From Blautia massiliensis (ex Durand et al. 2017) (GTDB lineage: Bacteria; Bacillota; Clostridia; Lachnospirales; Lachnospiraceae), in the NCBI RefSeq assembly GCF_001487165.1, contig NZ_LN913006.1:1635651-1699650 (forward strand): a stretch of 64,000 nt of DNA. The letters are read 5' to 3'. The position numbers and the translations under genes are program-made. The notes beneath the pieces were generated by a model. That model saw only the letters and a list, made by a program, of their open reading frames with translations. It was not told where the DNA came from and did no database searches. This document shows positions 32,928 to 53,587 of this stretch, in pieces (position 1 is the first letter of the stretch; each line of letters opens with the position of its first letter).

Positions 32928-33158
32928 TCAGACGGCTTCGGCAAGCTCCGCTGGTATCTCAACCATTCCCATTCCTGTGGGCTGAACCGTGTCATACGGG
33001 TGTATCATTATCCTGTGTTGCAGGTCATGGCAGAACGACTTTTCCAACGGTCGCTCCCAGATCATTGCATGAATCGCTATCTCCCGATTTGAAAAGTCAC
33101 GGCGTACAATCTCTGACGGCTCACTGCAAGCACAAACGTATCTGACTACTTTATTCAC
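32928..33158 (-). CDS. Possible small element protein, unknown
   Basis: An open frame of 76 aa, ending CHDLQHRIMIHPYDTVQPTG...IPAELAEAV. The lower part looks protein-like rather than random, and similar text seems to recur upstream of excisionase genes in Clostridial elements, but I do not recognise a domain. The promoter at 33137-33165 overlaps its proposed start, so translation, if any, would begin at an internal codon. It may instead be an untranslated leader. Confidence 0.3.
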   Translation of the reverse strand: MNKVVRYVCACSEPSEIVRRDFSNREIAIHAMIWERPLEKSFCHDLQHRIMIHPYDTVQPTGMGMVEIPAELAEAV

Positions 33159-51420: not shown

Positions 51421-52008
51421 TTATTTACTACATTCCATGACAAGCTTCTCACATCTGCCATATCCAAGCTGTGAACTATTCAGACACAACGTATAATTAC
51501 TGGCCTTTCCCCATTTCTGATCGGTATAAAAATTATAATTCGTCATACGCCTTTTATCTGTATCTGCCATCATTTTGACAGCTTCCTTCTCTCCTACATT
51601 ATATAAACCCATAATACGCTGTGTTTTTTCCGGCATATCCCCATGGATAAATACATTCAGTACATCATCCCTATCTTTCAGAATATAATCTGCATTTCTT
51701 CCGATAATCACACAAGATTCCTTATCAGCCAGTTCTAAAATAACCTTTCTCTGTGCCTCATACACCATGTCTTCTACTGATTTTCCTGTGATATCACGTC
51801 CGGCAAATGCATATGCAAACAAGCCTTTTTTCGGAGACAGTTCCGCACTTTCCTGAATATATTCCGGAGATAAACCAGACTTTTCTGCGATCTCATTGAT
51901 AATGTTTTTATCATAATAAGCGAGTCCCAATTTTTTCGCTAATTCTTCTCCGATAAAGCGTCCGCCGCTTCCAAATTCTCTACTGATCGTAATGATTCTT
52001 TTTGCCAT
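51421..52008 (-). CDS. Cytidylate-kinase-like family protein
   Basis: A 195-aa protein. ITISREFGSGGRFIGEELAKKL is the family start (P-loop variant G-S-G-G-R), then IIGRNADYIL and RIMGLYNVGEKEAVKMMADTDKRRMTNYNFYTD, where the Arg pair is the lid-like element. These proteins (PF13189) resemble Cmk but are separate from the essential enzyme, and their substrate is not established. It follows the MATE gene by 13 bp and is probably cotranscribed. Confidence 0.85.
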   Translation of the reverse strand: MAKRIITISREFGSGGRFIGEELAKKLGLAYYDKNIINEIAEKSGLSPEYIQESAELSPKKGLFAYAFAGRDITGKSVEDMVYEAQRKVILELADKESCVIIGRNADYILKDRDDVLNVFIHGDMPEKTQRIMGLYNVGEKEAVKMMADTDKRRMTNYNFYTDQKWGKASNYTLCLNSSQLGYGRCEKLVMECSK

Positions 52009-52021
52009 TTCCAGTTCCTCC

Positions 52022-53389
52022 TTAATTCAAAACATCTACTTTATTTTTTCTGATTCTCTTTAAAAATACATATCCTACAAAACAGGAAACTATTTCCGTA
52101 ATCGGAAATGCCCACCAGATCAGTGAAACTCCCATCTGTGCATTTCTGACAAGCATAGAAAAGATTCCAGCCAGCGGCAAGATAATAGTAAGCTGTCTCA
52201 AAAGCGAAATAACCAGCGATTCCACACCACCATCCAGTGCCTGATAAATGCCCTGATAAGCAACATTGATTCCTGCGAACAGGAAACTTATAGAAATCAC
52301 TCTCATTGCTCCGATAAAATATTCTCTCGACTGTCCCGCATTAAACAGCGTTGCAAATGCCCCAGGGAAAATCTCTGTGATTGCAATTCCCAGAATCATT
52401 AACACAATTGTATAGATCAGACCATATTTGATTCCATCCTGAATTCTCTTCTTACTTCTCATTCCATAAGCAAATGCAATGATTGGGGTGATTGCATCTC
52501 GCAGACCAAAAGCAAGAAACAAAACAAACTGCTGTACCTTATAGAACAGACCATAGGCCGTCTGTGCTGACGGATCGAACTTCAGGATCAGGTTCATTAC
52601 ATAAACCATAATGGACATCAGCGCCTGAGCAATGATTGCCGGAAGTCCGATTGCATAGATCTCCTTGATAATTTCGCCATCTGGCTTCATATATTTCGCC
52701 CCATGCTCGAATTCCTTATTTAATTTGATGTGAAAAATGAACAGTAATACTGCTGACGCTACCTGTCCAATTACAGTTGCGTAGGCTGCGCCTTTCACTC
52801 CCATTTCCGGACAAGGACCAATACCGTAGATCATGATCGGATCAAGGATGATATTTACAACCGCTCCAACCACCTGACCAATCGTGGAATAAAGAGAACG
52901 GCCTGTTGCCTGAAGTAACTTTTCAAATAGAGAAAAGAAAATAATACCAAAAGAAATTACGCAGCATATCCTCAGATAGCTGATTCCCATCTCACGTACT
53001 TCTGTATCTACTGTCTGCGATGAAATATATGCTTTCACCCCAAAGATACCAAACAATAAGCAGACCACATAAATGATCACTCCCAGAAACAGACTGTTTC
53101 CTGCTACCTTTGCAGCTTTTTTACTGTCGCCCTGTCCAAGTGTCCTTGCAAGAAGTGCATTGGTTCCTACACCGGTTCCAATCCCCACTGCCACCATAAG
53201 CATCTGCACCGGAAATACCAGTGTCAAAGCATTTAGTGCTGTCTCACTGCCTGCTTTCATATTTCCCACAAATGCACTGTCTACAATGTTATAGACTGCC
53301 TGCAATGCCATAGATAGGATCATCGGGATTCCCATTTGGACCATCAGCTTATTTACCGGCATCTCCTTCATCTTGTTGCTTTCCGCCAT
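52022..53389 (-). CDS. MATE family efflux transporter
   Basis: A 455-aa protein with about twelve membrane segments. [33 protein letters not shown] and [16 protein letters not shown]-(V)[16 protein letters not shown] are the typical N-terminal signatures of MATE transporters, which expel drugs or organic cations in exchange for Na+ or H+. The start is 33 bp after the second leader hairpin, leaving no space for another promoter, so transcription must pass both hairpins. Confidence 0.9.
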
Positions 53390-53421
53390 TTTGTTCTAAC
53401 TCCTTTCTTTTTAGCACAAAA

Positions 53422-53552
53422 AAAGTGCGCACCTTGTCATATAAGCTGGACTTACGCTGACACGCTACACACTTTTTCATGGCGATATTCATTTTTTCAA
53501 AATGAAAACGAGTAGCCGGTAAACTGGATTTACGCTTACTTGCTACTCGTTT
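53422..53552 (-). ncRNA. Tandem-hairpin leader RNA of the MATE gene (candidate cis-regulatory element)
   Basis: Hairpin A (53507-53552) pairs AAACGAGTAGC with GCTACTCGTTT; hairpin B (53422-53476) pairs AAAAAGTGTG with CGCACTTTTT and TGTCA with TGACA. Each closes on an inner stem with the same five-base loop: GTAAA-TCCAG-TTTAC in A and GTAAG-TCCAG-CTTAT in B. The A-T to G-C exchange in the inner stem keeps pairing. Over 29 bases the two are identical at about 22. Hairpin B runs into seven Us, and A into UUUU. It does not match a riboswitch class that I recognise. Confidence 0.6.
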
Positions 53553-53558
53553 CTTGTA

Positions 53559-53587
53559 ATTATATTGCCTCTTTTTCAAAAAGTCAA
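53559..53587 (-). promoter_or_regulatory. Promoter of the MATE leader
   Basis: On the minus strand TTGACT (53582-53587) is 17 bp from a perfect TATAAT (53559-53564). Transcription would begin within a few bases of hairpin A. Confidence 0.75.

Follow-up and report, generated by a model that had tools for sequence, protein, structure and literature searches.

A 30-nt RNA unit wired to terminators before MATE efflux genes: a candidate riboswitch class in Clostridia

Organization of the leader region

The window is the whole 64,000-nt stretch of DNA that was analysed, positions 1,635,651-1,699,650 of contig NZ_LN913006.1 in assembly GCF_001487165.1 of Blautia massiliensis (ex Durand et al. 2017). 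At 53422-53587, where all leader features are read on the minus strand, a promoter and two hairpins precede a gene for a MATE family efflux transporter. Each hairpin overlaps one copy (unit A or unit B) of a 30-nt element, which consists of box 1, a variable spacer and box 2. The features of the locus are:

53559..53587, minus strand: sigma-70-type promoter, TTGACT-17-TATAAT
53522..53551, minus strand: unit A, AACGAGUAGC-AAGUAA-GCGUAAAUCCAGUU (R2 covariance model, 43.8 bits)
53506..53552, minus strand: hairpin A, type I terminator hairpin, with box 1 of unit A as 5' arm
53444..53473, minus strand: unit B, AGUGUGUAGC-GUGUCA-GCGUAAGUCCAGCU (R2 covariance model, 40.9 bits)
53419..53478, minus strand: hairpin B, type I intrinsic terminator, with box 1 of unit B as 5' arm
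53400..53403, minus strand: GGAG, ribosome-binding site of the MATE gene, by sequence
52022..53389, minus strand: MATE family efflux transporter, the presumed regulated gene (TIGR00797, 191 bits, 3e-56)
51421..52008, minus strand: cytidylate-kinase-like gene (TIGR02173, 32.7 bits, below the cut-off of 102.1)

Both the promoter and the MATE identity of the gene, as given in a preliminary description of this DNA, were borne out. The promoter agrees with the consensus in 11/12 letters, and 0.7 promoter-like sites would be expected by chance in the surrounding 401-base region. The cytidylate-kinase-like gene begins 13 bp after the MATE gene and probably shares its operon. In one relative (L189) the unit directly precedes a Cytidylate_kin2 gene, and by reading, cytidylate-kinase-like genes were also seen downstream in L088, L091 and L113.

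Unit A starts 7 nt past TATAAT. Among relatives, 124/151 leaders have a -10 box (score at least 5/6) in the 25 nt ahead of their first unit, against 9/144 at control positions 200 nt further up, and the distance from box to unit is 6-8 nt in 88 of these 124. Since the unit usually stands 6-8 nt past the -10 box, transcripts are expected to begin with the unit, and nucleotide 1 of the unit is placed by this spacing at or beside the predicted transcription start.

This position bears on ribosome-mediated attenuation through a leader peptide (MNIAMKKCVACQRKSS...), which had been raised as a rival model and which fits with an open frame spanning hairpin B in the window and in close relatives (e.g. 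L008, L042). First units that mostly lie 6-8 nt past the -10 box speak against it, and so do spacer lengths, which taken modulo 3 are spread over every reading frame (68/48/37). Furthermore, a Shine-Dalgarno-like sequence with a start codon is found near the unit in just 14/168 distinct units, and the ATG before unit B is missing in some relatives (e.g. L014, L028). We consider a leader peptide hardly credible as the controlling element.

The conserved 30-nt unit

Aligned copies of the leader gave the two boxes, from which a sequence-only model (R1) and then a structured model (R2) were made. The conserved object is a 30-nt unit, ARYGWGURGC-N(mostly 4-9)-GCGUAARUCCARYU, and GCGUAARUCCAG is the core common to both hairpins of the window. 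Units A and B are the sole strong matches of R2 in the window, where the best non-unit match reaches 11.0 bits. In the host genome, R1 at E≤0.05 returned just these two units, and a search with the core pattern allowing one mismatch gave four further sites, each with one mismatch.

In the unit fold, nucleotides 1-4 pair with 26 and 28-30 to form P1, with A27 bulged, and 9-11 pair with 16-18 to form P2, which has two to three pairs and a variable loop. P1 and P2 are separated by an internal loop, WGUR/GUAARUC, with many invariant nucleotides; over the units, G4, G6, U20, A21, A22, C25 and C26 are invariant. Taken by itself, the unit fold has nearest-neighbour energies of +2.7 and +1.4 kcal/mol in the two units of the window, which means that a partner would be needed to hold the fold.

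The two boxes resemble GUGUAGC...GCGUAGA of helix 23 (h23) of 16S rRNA. Mimicry of h23 was dropped as an explanation, with R2 scoring at most 8.3 bits anywhere in a 16S stretch (L220).

Covariation of the unit fold

Two alignments were used: A4, with 94 distinct units from 125 matches (L125, judged a false match, L008:2135 and L089 were left out), and A5, with 69 class-set matches fitted to the R2 model. In A4, 98.0% of the cells are paired (1-4 with 26 and 28-30; 9-10 with 17-18), and 47 cells are double-changed against 7.5 after shuffling; here and below, the shuffles ignore the relatedness of the units. Coarser measures are less striking: for pairs changed in both partners, 37/500 shuffles were as high in A4 and 40/500 in A5, and for further pair types 23/500 and 0/500, respectively.

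Pair 2-29 is kept in 167/168 distinct units, against 97.3 expected after shuffling, with AU 72, GC 51, UA 28, GU 15, CG 1 and other 1 (in A5: AU 26, UA 20, GC 12, GU 3, CG 1, other 1). Pair 3-28 is formed in 168/168 units by four pair types (157.6 expected), and pair 10-17 in 165/168, 11 of them U-A (in A5: CG 50, UA 5, UG 2, other 1). The extra pair 11-16 is present in 109/159 units against 60.2 expected, and pair 1-30 is barely above shuffling (156 vs 154.4). Pairs 4-26 and 9-18 are nearly constant and lie outside the reach of covariation.

The preliminary description had drawn both hairpins with a shared loop on a common inner stem, GTAAR/YTTAY, and had pointed to an A-U/G-C exchange that keeps the pairing. 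The loop letters are indeed conserved and the exchange is true of both copies in the window, but the drawn stem is not conserved among the 168 distinct units. Its pairs 19-33, 20-32 and 21-31 are formed no more often than in shuffled units, pair 22-30 hardly varies and is uninformative, and pair 23-29 is weakly enriched (115 vs 104, 0/1000 shuffles as high). The inner stem was rejected as the conserved element; an overlapping hairpin, 1-4/26-30 with 9-11/16-18, covaries instead.

The boxes could also be a DNA operator, where a repressor would bind at the beginning of the transcribed stretch and the hairpins would be ordinary terminators, since the boxes lie at about +1 to +30 and their outer positions make an imperfect inverted repeat. 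At positions 1-3 of P1, G-U is tolerated and A-C hardly (53 vs 2, with 393 Watson-Crick and 11 other cells), which indicates selection on RNA and not on a DNA palindrome. The half-site spacing is also variable (4-9 in 146/153 distinct units, the few others ranging from 0 to 18), and either box can serve as a terminator arm. We regard an operator as very unlikely.

Terminators and their wiring

The two hairpins of the preliminary description hold up well, each folding better than 200/200 shuffles: hairpin A has a minimum free energy of -24.0 kcal/mol (z -7.8) and hairpin B of -26.0 kcal/mol (z -5.9). Hairpin A is followed by UUUUCAUUUU, an interrupted U tract, and hairpin B closes with the seven Us noted before (53424-53418). 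The latter does lie close to the MATE start codon (53389), at a distance of 28 nt and not 33 as first given.

Of 186 units, 181 have a T tract downstream, and in 162 one of the boxes can pair with the letters that precede the tract to make a terminator stem with a score of 8 or more. The same score was reached by ~48% with downstream pieces swapped, partly because the units resemble each other, and by ~17% with shuffled letters. Two wirings were found. In type I (119/186 units) box 1 is the 5' arm of the terminator and box 2 lies in its loop, while in type II (43/186) box 2 is the 5' arm and pairs with a downstream copy such as GGAUUUGCGC; 24/186 units fell in neither type. These counts follow the stricter of two rules, and a looser one, applied to 69 units, gave 32 of type I, 35 of type II and 2 unassigned. 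The pair U2-A29 occurs in 32/43 type II units, and type I units carry A-U, G-C or G-U there. In type I leaders with a single unit, one overlapping hairpin is seen. Neither the 30-nt hairpin that excludes the terminator nor its two terminator wirings were part of the preliminary description.

Because the unit hairpin and the terminator share a strand and are mutually exclusive, the element would act by antitermination, as an ON switch. In the window the nascent terminators are far stabler than the unit fold, so that the default state should be OFF. Judged by its sequences, the element has one of the marks of a riboswitch: a structured and conserved leader RNA whose pairs covary and which is linked to an expression platform.

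Another explanation is that two constitutive, unregulated terminators insulate the MATE gene from the upstream kinase gene, and both hairpins do fold as terminators. However, the promoter lies between the kinase gene and the hairpins, and the MATE gene would be silenced unless the terminators are conditional. Terminator pairing also leaves the conservation of the boxes across families unexplained, and we hold simple insulation to be highly improbable.

Distribution and target genes

By BLASTN the leader was found in 12/64 same-genus genomes, the host counted, and some of the 12 have further partial matches elsewhere. R1 had matches in 113/397 family genomes at E≤0.05, and 40 extra loci were read. 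R2 at E≤0.02 detected the unit in 60/391 genomes of the class Clostridia, 28/196 of the order and 10/249 of the phylum (own-family members included), where the E-values of both models are rough and ~8 false genomes in the class set and ~5 in the phylum set are expected at this threshold; at E<0.001, 44 class genomes stay. Units thus recur across Clostridia. A core pattern search (48/299 genomes) was excluded from all counts, because it likely yields chance matches without a terminator (e.g. L027, L029, L039) and a control with the reversed pattern also matches a number of genomes.

Units occur in many families of Clostridia, and the unit-bearing records among the matches listed include Blautia, Roseburia faecis, Eubacterium ramulus, Clostridium celatum, Ruminococcus flavefaciens, Flavonifractor and Eisenbergiella tayi. 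A type II unit was also seen in a Spirochaetales metagenome-assembled genome (L248), before a DUF2798-like frame, which may reflect transfer, a wider range or a mis-binned contig. The tandem arrangement, whose recurrence had been proposed as a check, is present as at least two detected units in 37/151 leaders, and 114/151 have a single detected unit.

In the class set, an open reading frame of at least 60 aa starts within 450 nt downstream of 64/69 matches. From these, 63 distinct proteins were scanned, giving MatE 33, CarD_TRCF_RID 7, MFS_1 3 and Cu_amine_oxidN1 2, with single cases of Cytidylate_kin2, UvrA_inter, TetR_N and DUF2798 among the best 25 of 36 Pfam families. The MATE count is a lower bound, as the longest-ORF rule may take a wrong frame. 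The MATE proteins behind units are of several kinds, and the other targets are diverse, including CarD-like proteins, HTH regulators and a nitroreductase-like gene; the labels DUF2798-like, ABC and nitroreductase-like outside the 63-protein scan were read from sequence. Recurrence before MATE and other exporter genes in relatives supports the earlier proposal of transcription attenuators in front of a MATE exporter. Since the targets are diverse, the ligand cannot be deduced from them.

Genes read as CarD-like stand behind units in L134, L142, L197, L198, L201, L204 and L217. These CarD-linked units, several of which have U-A at 10-17 and a longer loop, perhaps form a subclass. In L051 (1501 onward) an intact-looking unit is followed by just the first MATE codons, and the MATE gene there appears broken or replaced by unrelated sequence.

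Comparison with known RNA classes

The preliminary description had recognised no known riboswitch class, and our Rfam scans agree. With Rfam 15 at gathering thresholds, the whole window gave one match, a pemK RNA (RF02913) elsewhere at 32948-33011 on the minus strand (36.6 bits, gathering score 34.8), and none at the leader. A scan of 601 bases at E≤10 gave seven weak matches, three of which overlap the hairpins; at 11.2-19.8 bits they fall short of the gathering scores, which are 86 to 88. Twenty diverse loci, scanned at gathering, gave just one TPP match, elsewhere in L066. Literature searches, with most subscription papers outside their scope, found no description of the motif.

Guanidine-IV is described as a pair of hairpins within ~90 nt that a pseudoknot or kissing loop connects, and as standing most often before sugE (PMC7736828, PMC11611296). 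It is also described as an ON switch through an intrinsic terminator, with an overlap of aptamer and terminator and with MATE among the targets (PMC7736828, PMC11611296), all of which are similar to the present element. Here one 30-nt hairpin may be enough, as the share of single-unit leaders suggests, a possible difference taken from descriptions and not from an alignment. The targets differ too: MatE, CarD and MFS_1 together match up to 43/63 proteins, MatE alone exceeding half of the 63, and no SMR family was among the best 25 of 36 Pfam families, so sugE/SMR is not the main target here.

The guanidine-IV variant Gd4v is described with two hairpins and a pseudoknot and with more than half of its copies before a PRK07324 transaminase (PMC9788692), whereas single-unit leaders are common for the present element. 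Like our element, Gd4v is an orphan that is enriched in the gut, linked to terminators and found before some MATE genes (PMC9788692). Here MatE accounts for over half of the targets, a comparison made by description and not by consensus letters; with MatE in 33/63, a PRK07324 transaminase cannot exceed half of the targets, and no transaminase was among the best 25 of 36 Pfam families downstream of units. A distant relation to guanidine-IV or Gd4v may exist, the two being set apart here by descriptions only.

The HMP-PP (thiS) riboswitch shares a small aptamer embedded in a terminator, but it belongs to thiamin genes, and the unit has no Rfam match. ANTAR and BglG-type sites are alike in having a short hairpin that competes with a terminator; they differ in that the corresponding proteins do not co-distribute with the element here.

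Candidate protein partners

A short and strongly conserved hairpin beside a terminator would also suit a protein site. It is conceivable that a drug- or stress-activated RNA-binding regulator of the ANTAR or BglG kind sits on the 30-nt hairpin and blocks the terminator. ANTAR proteins are common, being found in 24/28 near-complete unit-bearing genomes and in 17/17 own-family ones searched. However, they are missing from four of the 28 and are present in 18/18 family genomes that gave no unit with the models (one of these, G080, carries a box-2-like terminator but no box 1 at L045). CAT_RBD occurs in just 7/28 unit-bearing genomes. ANTAR and BglG-type partners were rejected on these distributions, and protein-dependent antitermination in general seems to us unlikely. 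Because these two families, the only ones checked, do not track the element, a small molecule is the simplest partner.

A 79-aa orphan protein (MKRVKAACICQTLHF...) adjoins the unit in L018, L023, L037, L098, L116, L122 and L163; in the family and order sets it lies downstream of the unit at six or more loci and upstream at one, L018. Two members scanned had no Pfam or NCBIfam match. AlphaFold2 predicts a beta-alpha-beta-beta fold (pLDDT 91.9), and the model had no PDB match at E≤0.001. The protein was found in 1/36 genomes, that one unit-bearing (1/28), with a stop inside the match. As a trans-acting factor it was dropped, and its presence in just one unit-bearing genome makes it look like a target.

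Proposed mechanism

Taken as a whole, the earlier interpretation is partly supported. The MATE leader of the window is probably a pair of serial transcription-termination switches of an undescribed class, each a ligand-held ON switch. With nothing bound, the terminator hairpins would win and transcription would end after ~50 and ~130 nt. The ligand, a small molecule and probably one of the toxic compounds that the pumps expel, would bind the internal loop of the nascent RNA; binding would hold the unit hairpin and occupy the 5' arm of the terminator, and the polymerase would continue into the efflux gene.

For Clostridia at large, the element appears from its sequences to be a real, widespread and apparently unlisted class of transcription-attenuation RNA, most likely a riboswitch for a toxic compound. 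We lean towards its full description as an undescribed, Clostridia-wide riboswitch class with a ~30-nt aptamer at the first transcribed nucleotides, either conserved strand of which can be wired to a terminator, and which senses a toxic compound and turns on MATE, MFS, ABC and other detoxification genes. If this is right, gut Clostridia have a common, unlisted gene-control RNA, efflux in the gut would seem to answer to one shared chemical signal, and ligand discovery gains a defined 30-nt target. One regulon would then join orphan MATE subfamilies, DUF2798-like proteins, CarD-like factors and the 79-aa orphan. The two terminator wirings on one unit offer a natural test of the evolution of expression platforms around a fixed aptamer.

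With two serial copies, as in the window, basal expression would be lower and the response steeper. In genome G044 (L008) an extra, slightly diverged unit was seen at 1054 on the minus strand, with no gene of its own in view; it takes the place of the window's kinase gene, with a response-regulator gene on one side and the MATE leader on the other.
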